Program-made: the position numbers and the translations under genes
Assembly: GCA_003155655.1 (NCBI GenBank)
Contig: PMDS01000099.1
Coordinates: forward strand, 62,001 to 126,000
Direction of reading: 5' to 3'
DNA from: Melioribacter sp.
Lineage (GTDB): Bacteria > Bacteroidota > Ignavibacteria > Ignavibacteriales > Melioribacteraceae
DNA length: 64,000 nt
Shown: positions 176 through 63,649 of the stretch, one piece after another
How positions within the stretch are numbered: the first letter of the stretch is position 1
Layout of the letters: every line of letters starts with the position of its first letter
The notes under the pieces: model-generated
Databases searched by the model: none
What the model was told of the DNA's origin: nothing
What the model saw: the letters and a program-made list of their open reading frames with translations, nothing else

Positions 176-252
176 CAATTGAGAATTGAGAATTTAGAAT
201 GGAGAATTAAAAACCATTGAAATTCTCAATTCGCCATTCTCAATTCTCCATT
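176..252. repeat. Inverted pair of GAGAATTGAGAAT-type repeats between dut and dnaE
   Basis: A left arm (about 176-210) of GAGAAT/TGAGAAT units faces a right arm (about 220-252) of the complementary ATTCTCAATTC units, so the pair can fold into a long imperfect hairpin. The right arm contains the stop codon of dut. Related arms flank the four-helix-bundle pseudogene at 25685-26062, and a single arm follows bshC at 48141. No open reading frame lies between the arms here, so this looks like an empty or solo version of the element. Confidence 0.75.
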
Positions 253-715
253 AATCCGTTCCCGTGTGTCCAAAACCACCAGAACCACGGTTGCTTTCAT
301 TTAAATCGTCTGATAAAATTAAATTTGCATTAAAAACCTTTGATAAAACCATCTGTGCTATTCTTTCCCCTCTTTTAATAACAAAATTATCTTCACCAAA
401 GTTGAAAAGAATAATTTTTATTTCTCCGCGGTAATCAGAGTCGATTGTACCCGGCGAATTAAGAACACCAATACCATTTTTAGCAGCAAGACCGCTACGC
501 GGGCGCACCTGTAATTCATACCCGGCGGGAATTTCTGCACGCAAATTTGTAGGCACTAAAGCAACTTTTCCTTTTTCAATTATCATTTCATTTTCAATAG
601 CCGCGCGAACATCCATACCGCTGCTTCCTGAAGTTGAATATTCCGGTAGAGGCACATCCAAATAATTGCGGGTTACATGTTGAATTTTAATATTAATCTT
701 TTCAATTGATTCCAC
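251..715 (-). CDS. dut: dUTP diphosphatase (dUTPase)
   Basis: Hydrolyses dUTP to dUMP and pyrophosphate, keeping uracil out of DNA and feeding dTMP synthesis. All five motifs of the trimeric dUTPase family are present: motif I around residues 30-39 (GMDVRA), II at 71-77 (RPRSGLA), III at 81-98 with the catalytic Asp in GTIDSDYRG, IV at 115-122 (RGERIAQM), and the glycine-rich motif V near the C-terminus (RGSGGFGHTG). The length of 154 aa is normal for the family. Translation appears to start at a GTG directly after the stop of the preceding 95-aa gene, with GGAGAAGGAG upstream. The next in-frame ATG would remove motif I. The stop codon lies inside a dispersed repeat. Confidence 0.95.
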   Translation of the reverse strand: MESIEKINIKIQHVTRNYLDVPLPEYSTSGSSGMDVRAAIENEMIIEKGKVALVPTNLRAEIPAGYELQVRPRSGLAAKNGIGVLNSPGTIDSDYRGEIKIILFNFGEDNFVIKRGERIAQMVLSKVFNANLILSDDLNESNRGSGGFGHTGTD

Positions 716-4109: not shown

Positions 4110-6089
4110 CTAAAAAAACATTTTCGAAAATGACTTGCCAAGAATTTCAAGATCAAGCCAGATATTTTGATTCTTTGCGTAAAAGATTTCCATCTTTCTG
4201 CTTTCTTCAGAATCTGATTCTAAAGAACTTTCAATAAACCAGAATCCGGTTAGTCCAATTTTTCCAACGTAAAGTTCACCAGAAAAAGATGAATTTTTAG
4301 GACCGACAAAACTTTTTTCACCGGTTACTATTTTTGGAATACCAAGAATAAAGCGGAAAAATTCATTTTTCTTGGAGGTGAACTTGTGAATTAAATATAT
4401 AAAAGGATAAACCAAAAACAAAATTAAAATACCCAGCACAAAATCAAATGTCCTTTTTATAGCACGATGCAGGTATGATGAAATATTATACTGCACACGC
4501 AGCAATGGAATATCATCCAGCATAGTAATAGATGATTTACCAACCAGGTAATTCAACTCCTTGCCAGCGACCAAAAATTCAGCATTCTCTCCATAGCACT
4601 CTGATACAATAGCAAACATTTGATTGAAAGACAAATCATCAGAAGAAAAAATTACTTTATTAATTTTTTCATCAGCAATTATTTTTTTAATGTTATCAAC
4701 AGCGCCCAGAATCTTATAATTACCGACCTGAGAACCAACATTTTTTCTTGTTAATCCGATTAACCCCACAACATGATATAAGCGCGTAAACGTAGACTTA
4801 AGTTTAACTGCAAGTTCTTCCGCTTTAATTTCATTAGCAACAATCAAAGTGCGTGATTTTTTAATATCAGTTTCAAGGCCAATTTTGAAAATTACTTTAA
4901 ATATGGTTCTCCAAAGAGAAAAGAAGACAAAAGCAAATGAATAAGATATTATTACAACAGCACGGCTGTAAGCAACCTGCTTAAAAAAGAAAGTTAAAGC
5001 TGAAAGAAACACCATTCCAAACAATAAAGAGATGAAAGTTTGAAGTATTGAAAAAGATTTCTTTTTAAAAGCACCTGTTATTAATGAGATAATAATCTGG
5101 AATAAAGCGGGAACAAAATAAACCCAGGGTTTAACAATATCGGGGAAACCAACCCAATGATCCTTTGAATAAACATGCTCAGCTATAAAAACAGCAAGAG
5201 AGAAAAAAATAAAATCAATTATTATTGAAATGATTGAAAATTTATAAACATTGAAGAAAGAGAACATCTTGCGCAGCCAAATTGCAACCTGTAAAATTGA
5301 CTCAACAATAAAAGATGAGGAAAAATGTTTACGAACAAAAAGGTTCATTGCTTTATAGAAAAGTGTCGTCTCATCCAGGCTGCTTCGTTTTGTACTTTCA
5401 CCTTTATAATGAATTATTTCTGTAGTATGGACATAATAGACCTTAAACTTTTCTTTCTGGACACGATAACAAAGATCGAGGTCTTCACCATACATAAAAA
5501 ATTGTTCGTCAAACCCGCCGACTTTTTCATAAACATCTTTTCTGATAACCATGAAGGCGCCACTAACAGCATCAACTTCATAAGACTTATTTTCATCAAG
5601 GTAAGTAAGATTGTATCTTGCAAAAACACGGTTTTTAGGAAAAAGTTTACTAAGACCTGTTACTTTTGTAAATGAAGTCCACGGACCAGGAAAGCTTCTT
5701 CTACAAGCAAGCTGAATTGTTCCATCCGGATTAAGAACTTTACACCCGGCAATTCCAACTTGAGGCATCAGTTCAAAAAAATCCATCATTTTTGTAAGAG
5801 TATCTTCACGAACGATTGTATCAGGGTTTATTAAAAGGAAATACTTTCCTTTTGCAATTTTCATTGCCTGATTATTAGCAGTGCCAAAACCTGTATTAGT
5901 TTTGTTTGCAATTAGCTTAACATCCGGAAATTTCTCATGTAAAATTTCAATGCTGCCATCATCCGATGCATTATCAACAACAATTATTTCAGTAGAAATA
6001 TTGGCAGCAGCCTTACGTATTGACCCAAGAAGGTTGAGAAGAAATTCTTTTACGTTATAGTTTACTATTATTATTGATAAGTCAATCAT
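4110..6089 (-). CDS. GT2 glycosyltransferase fused to a membrane-bound, degenerate sugar-phosphate transferase domain
   Basis: Residues about 1-230 form a GT2 (WbbL-like rhamnosyltransferase) domain: it opens with IDLSIIIVNYNV, has VVDNASDDGS and LLINPDT as the nucleotide/metal-binding motif, and then GAFMVIRKDVYEKVGGFDE. Residues about 260-390 hold several transmembrane helices, followed by a CoA-binding-3-like region, as in polyprenyl glycosylphosphotransferases. The last 120 residues keep only edges of the transferase core (KRTFDFVLG, SFVGP, GLTGFW, a WLDLEIL end). The KFRSM and DELPQ catalytic portions are missing. The likely start is the ATG at 6089, 7 bases after the upstream stop. The GT2 half may be active; the C-terminal half probably is not. 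Confidence 0.8.
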   Translation of the reverse strand: MIDLSIIIVNYNVKEFLLNLLGSIRKAAANISTEIIVVDNASDDGSIEILHEKFPDVKLIANKTNTGFGTANNQAMKIAKGKYFLLINPDTIVREDTLTKMMDFFELMPQVGIAGCKVLNPDGTIQLACRRSFPGPWTSFTKVTGLSKLFPKNRVFARYNLTYLDENKSYEVDAVSGAFMVIRKDVYEKVGGFDEQFFMYGEDLDLCYRVQKEKFKVYYVHTTEIIHYKGESTKRSSLDETTLFYKAMNLFVRKHFSSSFIVESILQVAIWLRKMFSFFNVYKFSIISIIIDFIFFSLAVFIAEHVYSKDHWVGFPDIVKPWVYFVPALFQIIISLITGAFKKKSFSILQTFISLLFGMVFLSALTFFFKQVAYSRAVVIISYSFAFVFFSLWRTIFKVIFKIGLETDIKKSRTLIVANEIKAEELAVKLKSTFTRLYHVVGLIGLTRKNVGSQVGNYKILGAVDNIKKIIADEKINKVIFSSDDLSFNQMFAIVSECYGENAEFLVAGKELNYLVGKSSITMLDDIPLLRVQYNISSYLHRAIKRTFDFVLGILILFLVYPFIYLIHKFTSKKNEFFRFILGIPKIVTGEKSFVGPKNSSFSGELYVGKIGLTGFWFIESSLESDSEESRKMEIFYAKNQNIWLDLEILGKSFSKMFF

Positions 6090-25636: not shown

Positions 25637-25654
25637 AATGGCCACTATTTTAAT

Positions 25655-25688
25655 AATTGAGAATTGAGAATGGAGAATTGAGAATTAA
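25655..25688. repeat. GAGAATTGAGAAT-type repeat arm, left flank of the four-helix-bundle pseudogene
   Basis: A 34-base tract of TTGAGAAT and GGAGAAT units. It runs in the opposite direction to the arm at 26084-26118, so the two form an inverted pair about 400 bases apart with the pseudogene between them. The pseudogene's own stop codon (25685-25687) lies inside this arm. The same sequence occurs at 176-252 and 48141-48180. Confidence 0.8.
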
Positions 25689-26062: not shown

Positions 26063-26083
26063 TTAAACCTCAATTCCAAATTT

Positions 26084-26118
26084 TAATTCTCAATTCTAAA
26101 TTCTACATTCTCAATTAA
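26084..26118. repeat. GAGAATTGAGAAT-type repeat arm, right flank of the four-helix-bundle pseudogene
   Basis: Tract of ATTCTCAATTC units, complementary to the arm at 25655-25688. Read on the minus strand, it begins exactly with the TAA stop of the SDR gene (26115-26117), as the bshC-associated copy begins with the bshC stop. Confidence 0.8.
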
Positions 26119-35573: not shown

Positions 35574-35882
35574 TGTTAAAAGACAGAATACAAGACAGAT
35601 TAAGAGTATGATTAATATTAGGAGTAAGAGCAAGAAGATGATTAAGATTATGATTAAGAGTAAGATTAAGAAAAATATAATCTTGATTGTCTTAATCTAG
35701 TTCTTGCTCTTAATGTTTCATTAATTCTTATTCATGCTCTTATTCTTGATCTTAATCTTTAATTAACTCTTGCTCATGTTCTTAATCTTTCATCAATTCT
35801 TGCACATTCCCGCCGTGGCGGATAAACTCTTGATCTTAATCATGCCCGCCGCGGCGGGAAAACTCTTAATCTTGCTCTATGA
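35574..35882. repeat. Degenerate GATTAAGA/TCTTAATC repeat region with large hairpin and two GC-rich palindromes
   Basis: The whole gene-less stretch between pgk and the rhomboid gene is repeat. About 35596-35672 carries purine-rich GATTAAGA and GAGTAAGA units, and about 35680-35800 the complementary TCTTAATC and TTCTTGCTC units, so the RNA could fold into a long imperfect hairpin. Two GC-rich palindromes, CCCGCCGTGGCGG (from 35809) and CCCGCCGCGGCGGG (from 35845), each followed by ATAAACTC or AAAACTC, are embedded in it. Read on the minus strand the repeat begins right at the pgk stop codon. Confidence 0.75.
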
Positions 35883-37082
35883 TTATTTATCATCATTCAA
35901 AGCATCAACGCCGGGTAAAACTTTGCCCTCTAAAAATTCAAGTGAAGCGCCGCCGCCAGTAGAAACGTGAGAAACTTTATCATCCAGCCCTGCTTTTTTA
36001 ATAGCAGCAGCAGAATCACCACCGCCAATAATTGTTACAGCTCCATTGGCAGTTGCATCGGCTAATGCCCCTGCAATTGTATCGGTCCCTTTTGCAAAAT
36101 TATCAAATTCAAAAACTCCCATAGGACCATTCCAAATCACCGTTTTGCTGGATAGAATAACATTCTTGTATTCTTCAATTGTTTTTGGTCCAATATCCAA
36201 TCCCATTTTATCAGCGGGAATTTTATCGCTATCAACAATGGAAGCCGGGGATTCATTTTTAAATTCGGCCGCAACAATGTTATCTTTAGGTAATAGAACC
36301 TTTGCTTTGGAAGTCTTGAATTTTTCGAGCATTTGTTTTGCAAGATCAACTTTTTCAGCTTCCAATAGTGATGAACCAATTTCATAACCCATTGCCTTAT
36401 AGAAAGTATAAGCCATACCACCGCCAATTAAAAGATAATCAACCTTTGGCAAAAGATTTTCAATCACATCAATTTTACCTGAAATTTTAGACCCGCCCAG
36501 GATTGCAGTAAAAGGACGAACAGGATTGGCAATAGCCTCGCCAAGATAATCCAATTCCTTCTGCATCAAATAACCTGCAGCGCAAACTTTAATAAACTTT
36601 GTTACGCCTTCTGTAGAAGCATGCGCTCTATGTGCGCTACCAAAAGCATCATTAATATAAACATCGCCTAATTCAGCAAGCTGCTTAGCAAATACAGGAT
36701 CATTCTTTTCTTCTTCGGGATGGAAGCGTAAATTTTCAAGCAAGAGAACAGAACCATTTTGAAGAGAATCAACTATTGCTTTTACCTGGTCACCAATACA
36801 GTCTGGTGCAAATTTAACATCCATATCAAGAAGCTTCCCTAAACGTACAGCAACAGGCTTTAAACTGTATTTGGGATTTGGACCACCTTTTGGTCTGCCA
36901 AGATGACTCATAAGAATACACCGCCCGCCATCACCAATAATTTTTTTAATTGTAGGAAGCGCAGCGGTAATTCTAATATCGTCAGTAATTTGTAAATTTT
37001 CATCAAGGGGCACGTTGAAATCAACACGAACAAGAACGCGCTTGCCTTTCAAATTAACTTTGTCAATACTTAATTTTTTCAT
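35883..37082 (-). CDS. pgk: Phosphoglycerate kinase
   Basis: Glycolytic enzyme transferring phosphate from 1,3-bisphosphoglycerate to ADP. The 399-aa length is standard. Seen are [101 protein letters not shown] and [18 protein letters not shown] strong Shine-Dalgarno GGAGG (37089-37093) precedes the ATG. gap lies upstream on the same strand, but a terminator stands between them, so pgk probably also has its own promoter. Confidence 0.98.
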
Positions 37083-43965: not shown

Positions 43966-45921
43966 ATGATCGACATAAAAAATCTTTCTGTTCAATTTAC
44001 AGGTGAAAATCTTTTTGAGAATGTTAATCTAAAAATTGGAAAGCATGATAAAATTGCACTAGTCGGTTCTAACGGAACGGGCAAATCTACATTTCTAAAA
44101 CTTCTTGTTAGAAAAGAAGAACAAGAGACCGGTGAAATAACCAGGCAAAAAGGAATACAGGTAGGCTACCTTCAGCAAGATTCCATTGCTTATAAAGGAC
44201 AGACACTTTTTTCCGAAGTAAAATCTTCCTTACCCAATATAAAACAACTTGATGAAAGAGAACAAGAAATACTAGCAGCTTTAAATTCTGAGACAATATC
44301 AAGTGATGACCGCGAAGAATTATTAGAAGAACTTGGAGAGATTCATCATAAAAAAGATGAAATTGATTTTTATTCTGCTGATTCAAGAATTGAAAAAATA
44401 TTAGAAGGACTGGGCTTTAGCACAAAAGATTTTTTCAGGAGGACAGAAGAATTTTCGGGCGGCTGGCAGATGAGAATTCACCTTGCCAAAATTCTATTAG
44501 CAGAAAATGATTTAATACTTCTTGATGAGCCAACCAACCATCTTGATATTGACACACTTACATGGCTTGAAGATTTTTTACAGAATTTTAAGGGGGCATT
44601 AATAATAGTTTCCCACGACAGGCATTTTGTAAACACTGTTACCAATAAAACTCTTGAAGTATTTGACAGACAGATAAATATTTTTCCGGGCAATTATAAT
44701 GCGTATCTGACATTTAAAGACGAGCGTGAAATACAATTGCGTGAGATGCAAAAAACGCGCGAGAAAAAAATTAAGGAAACTGAGAAATTTATTGAGCGTT
44801 TCAGATACAAAGCTTCAAAAGCAAAGCAGGTTCAAAGCAGAATCAAACAGCTTGAAAAAATTGAGACAATAACTATTTCGGGAGAAGAGAAAAAAATTGA
44901 GCTTCACTTCCCTGAGCCTCCACGTAGCGGTGTTGTTCCCATTGAGCTTAAAAACGTCTTTTTTTCTTACGGTTCATTAGAAGTCTTAAATGATGTGGAT
45001 ATTCAAATAGAGAGGGGTGATAAGATAGCCATTGTAGGACCTAACGGTGCTGGTAAAACCACTCTTGCAAAAATTATTGAGGGCCGGCTGCAACCGGTTA
45101 AAGGAAGTTTAATATACGGTCATAACGCAATAATCTCTTATTATGAACAGGAAGTAGCAGATTCATTAAATCCAGATTTTGATTTGATAGATTCACTTGA
45201 AGAAATGAATAATGAACTGGGTGCAGGACAGATCAGATCGATACTCGGCTCATTCCTTTTTTCCGGTGATGACGTATTCAAAAAAATTATGGTACTTTCC
45301 GGAGGTGAAAAAAGCAGAATAGCACTGGCCAGAATGCTTTTAATGCAGAGCAATATTATAATATTGGATGAACCTACAAACCATTTGGATTTTACATCAA
45401 AAGAGATTCTACAAAAGGCTCTATGTAGTTTTACCGGCACACTGATTATAGTTTCTCACGATATTGATTTTTTGAAGCCGATTGTGAATAAGGTGTTTGA
45501 AATAAGAAACCAAAAAGTTAAAATTTTTCTTGATGGGATAGACTATTATTTACAAAAAAGAAAAGAAATTACAGAACAACCAATCCATTTAATAAATATT
45601 AACGAACAGAAAACAACACGCAAAGATCAAAAAAGATTAGAGGCGGAAATACGCCAGCAAAAGTTTAAGCTTACTAAAGATCTAAAGGCGGATCTATCGA
45701 CATGTGAAAAAAGAATTGAGAAACTTGAAGTCTTAAAGCGAAAACTTGAAGAGGACTTATCAGATTCCGGCATTTTTAGCAATGCACAAATTGCAAAAGA
45801 AAAAAATATTGAATATGATAAAACAAGAATTTCACTTGAAGGTGAATATGAACTATGGACTGAATTAACGCATAAAATTGAAGAAATTGAAAACGCTTTT
45901 GACGCAAATGGAGGCGGGTAA
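43966..45921 (+). CDS. ABC-F family ATPase (Uup/YfmR type)
   Basis: A soluble twin-ATPase of 651 aa without membrane segments. The first domain has Walker A GSNGTGKST (about residue 35), signature FSGGWQMR and Walker B LILLDEPTNHLD. A charged linker of about 80 residues (the P-site tRNA-interaction motif region) follows. The second domain has GPNGAGKTT, LSGGEKSR and IILDEPTNHLD. The C-terminal 100 residues are a coiled-coil ABC_tran_CTD. ABC-F proteins act on the ribosome or, for Uup, on branched DNA intermediates. The last residues (NGGG) and the stop codon are encoded by a dispersed GGCGGGTAAAC repeat. Confidence 0.93.
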   Translation: MIDIKNLSVQFTGENLFENVNLKIGKHDKIALVGSNGTGKSTFLKLLVRKEEQETGEITRQKGIQVGYLQQDSIAYKGQTLFSEVKSSLPNIKQLDEREQEILAALNSETISSDDREELLEELGEIHHKKDEIDFYSADSRIEKILEGLGFSTKDFFRRTEEFSGGWQMRIHLAKILLAENDLILLDEPTNHLDIDTLTWLEDFLQNFKGALIIVSHDRHFVNTVTNKTLEVFDRQINIFPGNYNAYLTFKDEREIQLREMQKTREKKIKETEKFIERFRYKASKAKQVQSRIKQLEKIETITISGEEKKIELHFPEPPRSGVVPIELKNVFFSYGSLEVLNDVDIQIERGDKIAIVGPNGAGKTTLAKIIEGRLQPVKGSLIYGHNAIISYYEQEVADSLNPDFDLIDSLEEMNNELGAGQIRSILGSFLFSGDDVFKKIMVLSGGEKSRIALARMLLMQSNIIILDEPTNHLDFTSKEILQKALCSFTGTLIIVSHDIDFLKPIVNKVFEIRNQKVKIFLDGIDYYLQKRKEITEQPIHLININEQKTTRKDQKRLEAEIRQQKFKLTKDLKADLSTCEKRIEKLEVLKRKLEEDLSDSGIFSNAQIAKEKNIEYDKTRISLEGEYELWTELTHKIEEIENAFDANGGG

Positions 45922-46350
45922 ACCGCGGCGGATAAAAATTTTTCCCATTACTTGCAGGAAGAAGGGTAAATTGAGCCCTTCGACAAACTCAAGGTAAAAA
46001 TGGAAAATGAAAGATTAAGTCCTTCCCTCCAAAAAACGCGGGGTAAACTCCAGAAAAGAACTCCGAAAAGCTAAATGATTCTCCTTTTCTTGGTGCAAGA
46101 AAAGGAGCAAAAGAACAGGCACTTAAAAATAATTGCTAAAATTTCATTACGTTACGCTGCGGTAAAAAAACTCCTCGTCCGCCAGAATAATAGGGCGGAC
46201 TCGTCAAACAGATTTTCCCGCTTAACGCTTCACTTCATGAAATTTCTTAACGCAATTCTTTTTAGGTGCGAGGACTTCCCTCTCCCCTGTTAAAAACACG
46301 GGAAAAGTTTGAAAAACGGAGGCGGGAAACCATGCCTACGGCGACCTCAC
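45911..46350. repeat. Cluster of GC-rich dispersed repeats and hairpins between the ABC-F gene and bshC
   Basis: The 593 bases from 45922 to 46514 hold no convincing gene. Seen are GGCGGGTAAAC across the ABC-F stop (45911-45924), GCGGCGGATAAAAA, a CCCTTCGACAAACTCAAGG motif (about 45977-45996), CGCGGGGTAAACTC (46037-46050), a perfect 12-bp-stem hairpin CTCCTTTTCTTG/CAAGAAAAGGAG (46081-46107), a GTCCGCC/GGCGGAC hairpin (46177-46200), and GGAGGCGGGAAACC near 46320. A 72-codon frame crosses them (46075-46293) but its translation is simply the repeat. The final 130 bases before bshC are AT-rich and should hold its promoter. Confidence 0.7.
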
Positions 46351-46514: not shown

Positions 46515-48143
46515 ATGTACATTAATTTTTCAGACATACCGGCACATCAAAATATTTTTTTGGATTTCCTGCATGAATATGAAAACGTATCAAAATTTTA
46601 CGGAAAGAATTTCAGAGACGTTGAAAAATATCCTTCTCTTTTTAAAAGTTTAAGTGAGAAAGAAAGGACCCATAATGCTCTTCTTCCTGAAATTATTAAA
46701 AATCAATACCAGGGTCAAAGTATATCGAAGCTTACCCAGAATAATATCAAATCCCTTTCTTCCAGTAATACTATAGTAATTGCTACAGGGCAGCAGCTTG
46801 GAATTTTTGGAGGACCGTTATATACATTCTACAAAATAATAACTGCAATAAAATTGTGCGACCATCTTAAAGATAATTATGAAGGTTATAATTTTATTCC
46901 TGTTTTCTGGATGGAAGGCGACGATCATGACTATGATGAGGTAAGAAGTTTTTCCATGCTGAATAATGAAAATCAGCTGATTAATTTAAAATATGATGAT
47001 GGTCAACTCGAAGAAATTAACCGCGGTTCTATAGGGAATTTAGTTTTCAATCAGAACATTGAGAATGTGTTCAACGAACTTGATGCAGCATTGCGTCAGA
47101 CAGAGTTCAAGGCACCGCTGCTTGAATTTTTAAAATCAATTTACAAACCGGAAAAAACATTTCTTGAAACGTTCCGTAAAGTATTAATTCATTTTTTTGA
47201 TGAATACGGTTTAGTATTATTCAGTCCCATTGACCCGGCTGTTAAAAGAATTTTAAAACCTGTATTTGAAAAAGAAATTACAGAATTTCTTTATCACACA
47301 TCATTTCTTGTAGAGCGAAGCGCTGAACTGGAAGAAATATACCACGCACAGGTTAAGGTTAAACCAATCAACTTATTTTATACAGATGAAAAAGAGCGCC
47401 TTTCAATTGATCCGACTGAAACCGGCGAGTACAGGCTGAAAGGAAAACGCAAGAAATTTACGCGCGAGGAATTATTATTACAATTAGAAGAAGCACCTGA
47501 AAAATTCAGTCCTAATGTTTTATTAAGACCGATATGCCAGGATTATCTTTTTCCTACTGCATTTTATATAGGCGGACCCGGAGAGATAAGCTACTTTGCA
47601 CAGGTATCCCCTCTTTACAAACTTTTTGGAATTGATGAACCTTTTATATACCCGCGTTCTTCAGCAACAATAGTTGAAAAGGGCGTTAAAGCGATTTTGG
47701 ATAAAAATAATATTTCGTACATTGAAATTTTTTCAGAGGAAAACGAATTAATTCAAAAAATTGTTGCAGCTTCTTCTGAATTTAACGTGGAGGATTTATT
47801 CGGGAATACTTTGCGTGATATTTTGTCTTCACTAAGTTCAATTGACGAGAAGTTAGGCAGGATTGATAAAACTTTGCCGGATCTAAGTTCTAAAACCAGA
47901 CAGAGGATTGAAGAATCGCTCAACCTTTTGAAGAATAAAGCTATTGACGCTGAGAAAAGAAAATACGATTCGACAATCCGCCAGGTCAGCAAGGTGCGCA
48001 ATGTTCTATACCCAAATAATAATTTGCAGGAAAGAGAGTTAAACTGGATCTACTTTGCAAACAAATACGGGATGGATATTGTTAAATGGCTTTATAAGGA
48101 GCTTACCATTAATAAATTTGAGCACCAAATCTTAGAGCTATAA
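46515..48143 (+). CDS. bshC: Bacillithiol biosynthesis cysteine-adding enzyme
   Basis: Adds cysteine to glucosaminyl-malate in the last step of bacillithiol synthesis, a low-molecular-weight thiol replacing glutathione. The 542-aa protein has the family motifs VIATGQQLGIFGGPLYTFYK, PVFWMEGDDHDYDEVRSF, KSIYKPEKTFLETF, LFSPIDP, GGPGEISYFAQVSPLYK, YPRSSATIVE and a C-terminal coiled coil (about residues 440-500). An AGGGAGA Shine-Dalgarno precedes ATG 46515. bshA and bshB are not in the window. A dispersed repeat begins exactly at its TAA. Confidence 0.93.
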   Translation: MYINFSDIPAHQNIFLDFLHEYENVSKFYGKNFRDVEKYPSLFKSLSEKERTHNALLPEIIKNQYQGQSISKLTQNNIKSLSSSNTIVIATGQQLGIFGGPLYTFYKIITAIKLCDHLKDNYEGYNFIPVFWMEGDDHDYDEVRSFSMLNNENQLINLKYDDGQLEEINRGSIGNLVFNQNIENVFNELDAALRQTEFKAPLLEFLKSIYKPEKTFLETFRKVLIHFFDEYGLVLFSPIDPAVKRILKPVFEKEITEFLYHTSFLVERSAELEEIYHAQVKVKPINLFYTDEKERLSIDPTETGEYRLKGKRKKFTREELLLQLEEAPEKFSPNVLLRPICQDYLFPTAFYIGGPGEISYFAQVSPLYKLFGIDEPFIYPRSSATIVEKGVKAILDKNNISYIEIFSEENELIQKIVAASSEFNVEDLFGNTLRDILSSLSSIDEKLGRIDKTLPDLSSKTRQRIEESLNLLKNKAIDAEKRKYDSTIRQVSKVRNVLYPNNNLQERELNWIYFANKYGMDIVKWLYKELTINKFEHQILEL

Positions 48144-48180
48144 TTGAGAATGGAGAATTGAGAATTGAGAATTAAAAATT
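48141..48180. repeat. GAGAATTGAGAAT-type repeat beginning at the bshC stop codon
   Basis: From the T of the bshC TAA the sequence runs as TTGAGAAT, GGAGAAT, TTGAGAAT, TTGAGAAT and then TAAAAATT. It matches the arms at 25655 and 26084 and at 176-252. It is a single arm here, with no opposing copy. Confidence 0.8.
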
Positions 48181-48220
48181 GAACAATGAGTACATAATCG
48201 GTTATCTGTTATAAGTCACT

Positions 48221-49166: not shown

Positions 49167-49388
49167 TAAACTTCAAGCTGTTAGCTATAAGATGAAAGAA
49201 TGTAAAATGAATCCATGCCTACAATAAATCCATGTCTACGTGTATTACTTCAGTAATCCGATAACAGTTCTGAGGCTCGTAAACATCAGGATTTTTTGTC
49301 ATTCTTTTATTTTTTTTTCAGAACATTTTTTGCAAAAAATATCAATTCTCCTTTTAATGCTGGTCCTAACTTTTTCAACAATTCTCAC

Positions 49389-49471
49389 CAATTTCCATCC
49401 AATTTCCACCTAATTTTCACCCAGTTTTTACCCTGTTTTTATCCCATTTTTATCCCGTTTTTATCCTGTTT
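49389..49471. repeat. Degenerate 11-12-base tandem array
   Basis: Seven or so successive units of the form (T/A)TTTT(A/C)(T/C)CC(C/A), growing more regular rightwards: CAATTTCCATC, AATTTCCACC, AATTTTCACC, then TTTTTATCCCA, TTTTTATCCCG, TTTTTATCCTG. No gene overlaps it. Confidence 0.65.
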
Positions 49472-58611: not shown

Positions 58612-58781
58612 TAATACTCCGGCGGGCTGGCCACGCCTACTTTTGCATTTCGGCTGGCAGGCACCTAATTACTGCTCATCTCATTTTATTAATTTTTTAC
58701 TCGATCCCGACAAGTCGGCATCACTCTACAACAGGAAAATTTTTATTATAGAAACGCACTGCCAATATTTTACGTCTTCCA

Positions 58782-58854
58782 TTTCCCTTTTCCCGTTTCC
58801 CTTTTCCCTTTTCCCTTTTCCCGTTTCCCTTTTCCCTTTTCCCTTTTCCCTTTT
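58782..58854. repeat. Heptanucleotide tandem array TTTCCC(T/G)
   Basis: About ten tandem copies of the 7-base unit TTTCCCT, with TTTCCCG variants at regular places. It lies 68 bases from the aroA stop codon. The strand asymmetry is total: pyrimidine on plus, GGGAAA on minus. Such arrays can change length by slippage. Confidence 0.8.
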
Positions 58855-58921
58855 TCTCCTTACCCCTTTAAAATTATACTTTATACTATTTTTTTTACTT
58901 CTTTCTTCTAGCGTAAAGCGT

Positions 58922-60202
58922 TTAATTCCTAAGTCTAGCCACCTGCTCAACAAACTGCGGATTAGAAACTCCGGCACATTCAAAACCTTTGACACTGCCG
59001 CCGTTTTGCGTTAGCAAACTTAATACGCCAAATGCCATCGCGATTCTGTGATCTCCAAAACTTTCAAATAATATATGTTCAGTTGATATATTTCCGCTAA
59101 GTTTAAATCCATCTTCAAATTCGTTTACGTCAAGTCCTATCTTTTTAAAATTAATGCACAATGATTTAATTCTATCTGATTCTTTTACGCGCAATTCCTT
59201 TGCACCGCTAATTTTAAAATTACCCTGCGCAAATATGCCAGCAACAGACAATATCGGAATTTCATCAATTATGTTTGGTATTATTGATGCAGGTATTTCA
59301 ATATTTTTAAGATCACTTGATTCTGTATAAACATCGCCAACTTTTTCCCCGTTTTCTTCTTTTTCATTTTCAATTTTAATTTTTCCGCCCATCTTTTTAA
59401 GTATCTTAATTATACCCGTGCGCGTTTCATTCAATGAAACATTTTTAATAAGCAGTTTGGAATTTTTTATTAGCAATGCAAGAACAATAAAAAAGGCAGC
59501 GCTTGAGATATCCGAAGGTACGGTAATATTAAAAGGTTTAGGATAATTTTTTCTTGAAGCAAAAATTTTTGTTCCTTCAACAGATGGTACAGTTTTTAAA
59601 CCAAGAAGTTTTTCAGTATGGTTTCTTGTAGGAACCGGCTCTATAATTATTGATTCATCTTCAAGATGAATTGCGGCTAACAGCATGGCGCTTTTAACCT
59701 GCGCGCTTGCAACAGTCAGTTTATAATTAATTGGTTTGAGAGATTCGGATGGTTTAATTACAAGCGGAAGCATACCTTTTTCATTTGCTGAAATATCCGC
59801 ACCCATTAATCTTAATGGTTCAACAATTCTTTTCATCGGCCGCTGAGAAAGTGATTCATCACCAGTAATTACGGACTCGAAATTTTGCGCGCATAAAATG
59901 CCGCTTATCAAACGGGTTGTTGTTCCTGAATTACCCGCATATAATTCACTTTGCGGTTTAGTAAAACCTTTAAATCCTTTTCCAAAAACTTTTATGTTTC
60001 CTTCACTGCGCTCGAATTTACACCCTAATTTTTCAAAACATTGCATGGTTGAATTTACATCTTCAGAGTTGGAGCAGTTTTGAATATGCGAAATACCATC
60101 AGCCATAGAGGCAAACATAACGGAACGGTGTGAGATGGATTTATCACCGCGCAGTTTCAATTCACCATTCACACTATTAATTTTTTCAAATTTTTGAATC
60201 AT
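58922..60202 (-). CDS. aroA: 3-phosphoshikimate 1-carboxyvinyltransferase (EPSP synthase)
   Basis: Sixth step of the shikimate pathway: transfers enolpyruvyl from PEP to shikimate-3-phosphate. The 426-aa protein has ELKLRGDKSISHRSVMFASM with the substrate-binding Lys/Ser/Arg, ELYAGNSGTTTRLISG, GDESLSQRPMKRIVEPL, SAQVKSAMLLAA, IPASIIPNIIDEIPILSVAG with the catalytic Asp, and FGDHRIAMAFGVLS. The ATG at 60202 overlaps the previous stop by 4 bases (ATGA), which I prefer over 60214. It ends the housekeeping operon that begins near folD. Confidence 0.96.
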   Translation of the reverse strand: MIQKFEKINSVNGELKLRGDKSISHRSVMFASMADGISHIQNCSNSEDVNSTMQCFEKLGCKFERSEGNIKVFGKGFKGFTKPQSELYAGNSGTTTRLISGILCAQNFESVITGDESLSQRPMKRIVEPLRLMGADISANEKGMLPLVIKPSESLKPINYKLTVASAQVKSAMLLAAIHLEDESIIIEPVPTRNHTEKLLGLKTVPSVEGTKIFASRKNYPKPFNITVPSDISSAAFFIVLALLIKNSKLLIKNVSLNETRTGIIKILKKMGGKIKIENEKEENGEKVGDVYTESSDLKNIEIPASIIPNIIDEIPILSVAGIFAQGNFKISGAKELRVKESDRIKSLCINFKKIGLDVNEFEDGFKLSGNISTEHILFESFGDHRIAMAFGVLSLLTQNGGSVKGFECAGVSNPQFVEQVARLRN

Positions 60203-62776: not shown

Positions 62777-62854
62777 AAGATTTAAATTGTAATTTTTAGT
62801 GTTATTGGGGATTATTCAGGATTATTTTTGTTCATTTTGGATCATTCCAGATTA
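62777..62854. repeat. Degenerate TAATCC tandem tract after the ymdB-like stop codon
   Basis: On the minus strand from the TAA stop of the ymdB-like gene the sequence reads TAATCTGGAATGATCC, AAAATGAACAAAAATAATCC, TGAATAATCCCC: irregular repeats of (A/G)AATAATCC. It fills the 75 bases to folD. Confidence 0.5.
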
Positions 62855-63649
62855 TATTTTTTTATCAAATTCGGGTATAAAAATTCTCTCAATCTCGGTA
62901 GTTTTTCCGGTCTCAGAATCAATCTTTAGGTACACTCCGGTCAGGTGAACGTTATCGGTAGCAGTTTGATATTTTTGCGGAGTTTGATATAAAAATCTAT
63001 TTATAGCCGCGTCTATTTTCATTCCTATCACAGATTCATACGGACCAGTCATACCGCAGTCGGTAATATATCCGGTACCGCCGGGTAAAATTCTTTCATC
63101 GGAGGTTTGAACATGAGTGTGAGTACCAATAACAGCAGAAACTTTTCCATCCAAAAAATAAGCGAGTGCTAATTTTTCAGCTGTAGCTTCGGCGTGCATA
63201 TCAATAACTACAATTTTCGTTTCCTGTTTAATTTTTGTAAGAACCCATTCAGCAGTTCTGAACGGGCAATCAATTGTAGCCATAAATGCGCGTCCCTGAA
63301 GATTCATAACTGCTACTTTCCCTTTAGCTGAATCAACAATATTGTATCCATTACCGTGTGAACCTTTAGGATAATTTAGGGGACGAATAACACGCGAGTC
63401 TTTTCTTAAATACTCCTGCGATTGATGTTTGTCCCAGGTATGATTACCGCCAGTAATTACATTTACTCCAAGGCCAAAAAGTATTTTCGCTTCCTGTTCT
63501 GTACAGCCTTTTCCGTCAGAAACATTTTCCCCGTTTACAATTGTAACATCTATATGATATTTTTTTTGTAAACTAGGTAAATACATTTGAACGATATCAA
63601 GTCCGGGCTGCCCGACAATATCACCAATAAAAAGTACGTTGACTGTCAT
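62852..63649 (-). CDS. YmdB-family metallophosphoesterase (2',3'-cyclic-nucleotide phosphodiesterase)
   Basis: A calcineurin-like phosphoesterase of the TIGR00282/YmdB family, about 265 aa. Motifs are VLFIGDIVGQPGLDI at the N-terminus, IVNGENVSDGKGCT, ITGGNHTWDKHQ, IDMHAEATAEKLALAYFLDG, and IGTHTHVQTSDERI, which provide the metal ligands Asp, Glu, Asn and His. B. subtilis YmdB hydrolyses 2',3'-cAMP and affects biofilm regulation. I chose ATG 63649, with AAGGAT upstream; earlier starts would add a non-conserved hydrophobic stretch. Confidence 0.88.
   Translation of the reverse strand: MTVNVLFIGDIVGQPGLDIVQMYLPSLQKKYHIDVTIVNGENVSDGKGCTEQEAKILFGLGVNVITGGNHTWDKHQSQEYLRKDSRVIRPLNYPKGSHGNGYNIVDSAKGKVAVMNLQGRAFMATIDCPFRTAEWVLTKIKQETKIVVIDMHAEATAEKLALAYFLDGKVSAVIGTHTHVQTSDERILPGGTGYITDCGMTGPYESVIGMKIDAAINRFLYQTPQKYQTATDNVHLTGVYLKIDSETGKTTEIERIFIPEFDKKI

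Follow-up and report, generated by a model that had tools for sequence, protein, structure and literature searches.

Heptanucleotide arrays that start at stop codons in Melioribacteraceae and other Ignavibacteria

Results

The window, a 64,000-nucleotide stretch of a Melioribacteraceae (Ignavibacteria) genome (4.62 Mb, 137 contigs), contains several genes whose stop codons lie in or next to repeated DNA. The initial annotation had placed repeats at six such stops, and all six are present, although the exactness of the placement is unequal. At bshC (48141..48182, forward strand), the TAA occupies 48141-48143 and an AATTGAG/AATGGAG array of about six units (AATTGAGAATGGAGAATTGAGAATTGAGAATT) starts at 48142, inside the stop codon at its second base. 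An array also begins within the stop codon of an SDR gene (26072..26117, reverse strand; stop 26117-26115, array TTGAGAATGTAGAATTTAGAATTGAGAATT at 26072-26116), and that at dut (221..253, reverse strand; stop 253-251, array TGGAGAATTGAGAATGGCGAATTGAGAATT at 252-221) is accompanied by a facing heptad array on the forward strand (177..208), which is 84% complementary over 32 nt and could pair with it. Within the end of an ABC-F gene, a dispersed module, GGCGGGTAAAC (45913..45923, forward strand), holds the stop TAA (45919-45921) and a GGG tail; because most congeneric ABC-F proteins end 2-5 residues sooner and lack the GGG tail, the repeat probably supplies the stop, as had been proposed. A weak tract with a 10-bp period (62802..62855, reverse strand) overlaps the stop of the YmdB-like gene (TIGR00282). 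For pgk (35577..35885, reverse strand; stop 35885-35883), the claimed repeat exists as a hexamer tract (AAGATT/AAGAGC, in sense orientation) with a facing tract at 35577-35678, but it is offset from the stop: the GATTAAGA-type tract sets in about 7 nt past the stop in the window and 0-6 nt past it in most congeners.

Heptads occur at other sites in the window as well. At aroA (58768..58924, reverse strand; stop 58924-58922), degenerate units run from ACGCTTT, ACGCTAG and AAGAAAG to GGGAAAA/CGGGAAA, an array that is absent 3' of aroA in congeners, and an AATTGAG-type copy at 25652..25686 (forward strand) has no adjoining same-strand stop and lies 15 nt away from where an opposite-strand gene starts. 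Tracts with 10- and 11-bp periods (ATTTTTATCCC-like) also recur in intergenic DNA of this genome, both in the window (49379-49471) and at other loci (L159, L162, L167).

The repeat at bshC is a degenerate 7-bp tandem array built from the units AATTGAG, AATGGAG, AATTTAG and AATTGCG, typically 4-6 units in length, and the family is spread over about 57 sites in the genome, in which GAGAATNGAGAAT was counted 106 times as against once for a reversed control. A stricter three-unit pattern was less common in congeneric genomes and almost lacking elsewhere in the order. Each AATTGAG unit carries TGA once on the sense strand and not at all on the antisense strand. The AATTGAG and AATGGAG units contain no GGG runs, so that the arrays are not G-rich and quadruplex-forming in the manner of the class described by Rehm et al. 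(2015); in having imperfect 7-bp tandem units at many sites per genome, mostly in intergenic DNA (46 of 62 arrays), they agree with STRR, or heptameric long simple sequence repeats (SSRs).

We fetched approximately 10 kb around each listed site and called genes automatically with a simple codon model, which allowed 62 arrays to be measured (tens, not hundreds), 46 of them intergenic and 16 inside genes. Among the 46 intergenic arrays, 16 start between -12 and +40 nt from the end of a same-strand gene, compared with 2.9 expected under uniform intergenic placement and 3.9 when positions are drawn from the same gap (p 0.002, the lowest value that 400 simulations can give), and none of the 46 lies near a stop in the mirror orientation, a sense-strand excess of the kind reported within 50 bp of stops by Rehm et al. 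(2015). Convergent gaps, which have stops on both flanks, show the same bias, with AATTGAG arrays adjoining the sense stop six times and the antisense stop never. The preference is partial, with 16 further arrays inside genes and the majority of all copies (46 of 62) away from stops. A genome-wide preference for stop codons, suggested originally from the window, thus withstood comparison with random placement, for this family (16/46) as well as for heptads of any sequence (16/27, see below).

This placement could arise by targeted insertion, one of the possibilities raised in the initial annotation, in which a short mobile repeat, about 30-40 bp long and with AATT at its boundaries, would prefer the TAAT or TAATT of stop codons. 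The wide dispersal of the AATTGAG family is in line with such an element, as is the AATT at both termini of many copies, AATT itself being part of the unit. The phase at stops is usually T followed by AATTGAG or AATGGAG, and only 18% of all stops continue with TT or TG in this way; one copy begins 4 nt downstream of a tRNA-Arg gene (L076:4915-5014), so the neighbour of an array need not be a stop codon. Against insertion, we found no target-site duplication and no nucleotide-level pair of empty and filled sites (intergenic DNA is unalignable at about 75% protein identity), most copies adjoin no stop, and many other heptads are placed alike in other genomes, for which a single mobile element would be insufficient. 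Overall, we consider targeted insertion unlikely.

An unbiased scan for tandem periodicity of any sequence covered 1.58 Mb from three genomes (G000, G001 and G007) and 17 further genomes of the family and order, scoring period-7 arrays in stop-holding gaps as near when they start between -15 and +25 nt from the stop, with random placement in the same gap as the null. Near the stop lay 16 of 27 period-7 arrays against 5.0 expected (p 0.0001), and 12 of 20 against 4.5 when the discovery window was left out (p 0.0001), while near start codons the same-gap test gave no excess of period-7 arrays (1 against 4.2 expected). The sequences of the arrays are diverse (AGCTAAC, CTAGATT, TGAAANG, GTGATTG, TAGCTTC, GATGCTG and others). 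Periods 6, 9, 10, 11 and 12 showed no significant stop preference by the same-gap test in the 1.58 Mb; some subsets, with counts of 2-3, reached a nominal p <0.05, and period 8 was borderline (p 0.04-0.05). This rules out that all repeat periods behave alike, and the 'several repeat kinds' of the initial annotation are accordingly narrowed to a significant period 7 and a borderline period 8, the other periods among 6-12 dropping out. A further 0.4 Mb examined as a replication sample held five arrays only, three of them near a stop against 1.4 expected (p 0.12), a result that is consistent but underpowered.

Chance or a gene-finding artefact, by which short gaps would force arrays close to stops, is a very improbable source of this signal. 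The genes were called from a simple codon model, and some segments picked up by the periodicity scan are hairpins, not arrays (L180, L205); yet the same-gap null preserves gap sizes and still returns p 0.0001, most other periods lack a significant signal, and the stops themselves are confirmed by the ends of orthologues. Stop-anchored arrays also occur where the gap is 200-700 nt long, and the stops that carry an array make up only a few percent of the total. Of 21 stop-located arrays, 8 have every reading frame closed within 36 nt, as against 15% of controls, and arrays hold slightly more stop triplets on the sense strand than shuffled sequence (3.48 against 3.12), an excess too weak for stop triplets in all frames to be the whole explanation.

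We compared orthologous stops using one genome per species, the species differing by about 25% at the protein level. The bshC product stops at the same residue in most of 26 relatives, drawn from Melioribacteraceae and other Ignavibacteria, none of which has the bshC array. For SDR, dut and queC, which were chosen because the window or its copies had arrays there and are not a random gene sample, protein ends are identical in position across the genus. At SDR, roughly half of 12 congeners have an AATTGAG-type array starting within the stop codon, the others having other heptads or none; the same kind of array starts within the stop codon of dut in 8 of 10 genomes and of queC in about 6 of 9 with a readable end. 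Between species placed close together by a four-gene tree, the heptad at the same stop differs, being TTATGAA, TTGAGAA and CTGGATG at SDR (G007, G008 and G011, respectively) and TTGAGAA and TAGCTAT at dut (G003 and G004). One genome (G006) has no array at any of the SDR, dut and queC stops. Within single arrays (L154, aroA), the unit shifts from one heptad sequence to a different one while the register is kept.

The orthologues of dut, SDR and queC end at the same residue, most with an array starting in the stop, from which it follows that these arrays are not insertions that cut the genes short; a gene-truncating insertion is ruled out at these genes and at bshC, whose ends match those of relatives to the residue. 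In a quinone oxidoreductase (QOR) gene (L062), by comparison, the TGA lies inside the array and the protein ends within a few residues of its relatives. Two situations thus occur, an array beginning at an ancestral stop and a repeat that overlaps and supplies the stop, and truncating insertion is a possibility at the ABC-F and QOR genes. Relatives have another dispersed repeat (GTCATTCTGAGTC..GAAGAATCTCAAA) within a few nucleotides after the stops of bshC and aroA (L080, L081, L104, L105, L212, L214, L218), indicating that these sites host different repeat families.

A functional 3'-end element, working at the RNA level in sense orientation only (by terminating transcripts, by forming a hairpin between cistrons or as a signal with a 7-nt step), would account for the strand bias of AATTGAG arrays and for the recurrence of arrays throughout the genus at dut, SDR and queC. 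The facing arrays at pgk and dut form predicted hairpins, and the 100 nt after the dut stop folds with a z of -4.9; in congeners, the pgk hexamer forms a hairpin in most, replaced by an ordinary terminator-like hairpin in two. As a class, however, arrays do not conform to the definition of an intrinsic terminator (a stable hairpin and then a T run 3' of the stop), dut and pgk folding as individual cases: the mean folding z over 100 nt 3' of stops is -1.30 with arrays and -1.26 in controls. Array 3' regions are therefore as structured as controls and the arrays are not, in general, terminators; a terminator hairpin is unsupported as the general explanation, and so is the earlier proposal of growth of terminator-like sequence as a general account, the pgk and dut hairpins notwithstanding. 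SDR and queC, moreover, have no facing array, and their array occupies a large part of the interval before the following gene; G006 has no array at SDR, dut or queC, and the great majority of stops have none. A 3'-end function is possible on this evidence, though doubtful.

Discussion

A literature search returned nothing on tandem repeats at stop codons of Ignavibacteria. Heptads described in Xanthomonas and Nostoc (GGGNATC and GGGGA(C/T)T; Rehm et al. 2015, PMC4692102) are, in the description given there, degenerate 7-nt units, mostly four per array, that favour the sense strand within 50 bp of stops, sometimes overlapping the stop or forming inverted pairs, and also the antisense strand within 50 bp upstream of ORFs; they are G-rich and quadruplex-forming, with one motif per genus. 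The arrays reported here resemble these in their degenerate units, their position on the sense side of stops, and in some stop overlaps and inverted pairs, and differ in being AT-rich, in having many motifs per genome and no excess near starts, and in that a single orthologous stop can carry different motifs. The TAACTGA direct repeats that occur in Beggiatoaceae, Cyanobacteria and some Bacteroidetes (MacGregor 2015, PMC4679880) likewise have 7-nt units that close all three frames one way and leave them open the other, some overlapping stops; unlike the Ignavibacteria arrays they are described there as a single invariant heptamer, found in Beggiatoaceae mostly just upstream of start codons. 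STRR and long SSRs (Calothrix heptamers; Mrazek et al. 2007, cited in PMC4692102 and PMC4679880) share the excess of 7-bp periods in intergenic DNA, which has been laid to polymerase slippage, and differ in that the passages citing them describe no stop anchoring. The Ignavibacteria arrays belong with the stop-proximal heptads, from which AT-rich motifs, motif diversity per genome and differing motifs per orthologous stop set them apart, and they add to a class of bacterial repeats that has been little studied.

As the most probable reading, though with somewhat less than even confidence, we propose that the arrays evolve in place by slippage-like change, with dispersal of some families and the 5' end held at the stop. 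They would be STRR-type long simple sequence repeats, gaining and losing 7-nt units in place with accompanying homogenisation, and some families, such as AATTGAG, may in addition have dispersed within the genome. Selection could fix the 5' end at the stop codon, where coding constraint ends, and would remove arrays from coding sequence and start neighbourhoods; units with sense-strand stop triplets (TGA, TAG, TAA) may allow overlap with the stop without a longer protein. The data show the placement, the strand bias of AATTGAG, a restriction mainly to period 7, protein ends that are conserved and heptads that differ between sister species at one stop; slippage, homogenisation and selection as the pinning force we infer. 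In-register drift within arrays and turnover between sister species fit in-place slippage, and the occurrence of arrays at the same genes across the genus, sometimes as other heptads, accords with in-place evolution no less than with targeted insertion. The excess of period-7 arrays at stops and its lack at starts also speak for the slippage reading, as do the unchanged C-terminal position of dut, SDR and queC despite differing array sequences, stops supplied by an array (QOR), the sense-strand TGA in each unit, arrays in T9SS domains read in the open antisense frame, and the closure of all three frames more often than in controls.

Other observations sit less well with slippage. Placement at stops in the longer gaps is not predicted by passive tolerance, and the bias in convergent gaps is unexpected, since an antisense array 1-40 nt past a stop should be harmless; the stop-triplet excess is slight and the replication sample small. 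Pinning in long gaps and strand bias, unexplained by slippage and selection, leave room for a 3'-end function or targeted insertion. Stop codons might alternatively be recurrent birth sites of arrays, a process tied to 3' ends depositing sense-oriented heptads whose sequence changes, and one orthologous stop would then gain different heptads in sister species; we regard this as quite improbable. That heptanucleotides are over-represented in bacterial genomes is a long-standing observation whose cause is not settled. The dut, SDR and queC stops provide a species-by-species comparison of arrays.

Heptad arrays also occur within coding sequence. Some ten genes for proteins with a C-terminal T9SS sorting domain (loci L031, L036, L038, L042, L047, L050, L052, L056, L058 and L069, near locus position 5000), in a genome with 95 matches to PF18962, carry the array in frame, antisense and at the same place, YNSQFSILNSQ replacing the usual YEVEFDAS. 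Rickettsia palindromic elements, dispersed palindromic repeats of about 100-150 bp found in frame inside proteins, offer a parallel as in-frame dispersed repeats, the Ignavibacteria repeats differing in being 7-bp tandem arrays. In-frame arrays are further present in a putative RsmE-type methyltransferase (identified by eye) and a coiled-coil protein (L040 and L035, near position 5000). Finally, palindromic modules (TTGCCTGCCGGCAGGCAA, ATCCGTCAGCTGACGGA and CTTGTCCGCC..GGCGGA) lie inside heptad arrays, coding sequence included (L031, L042, L058, L057:6800-6850 and L061:5000-5040).
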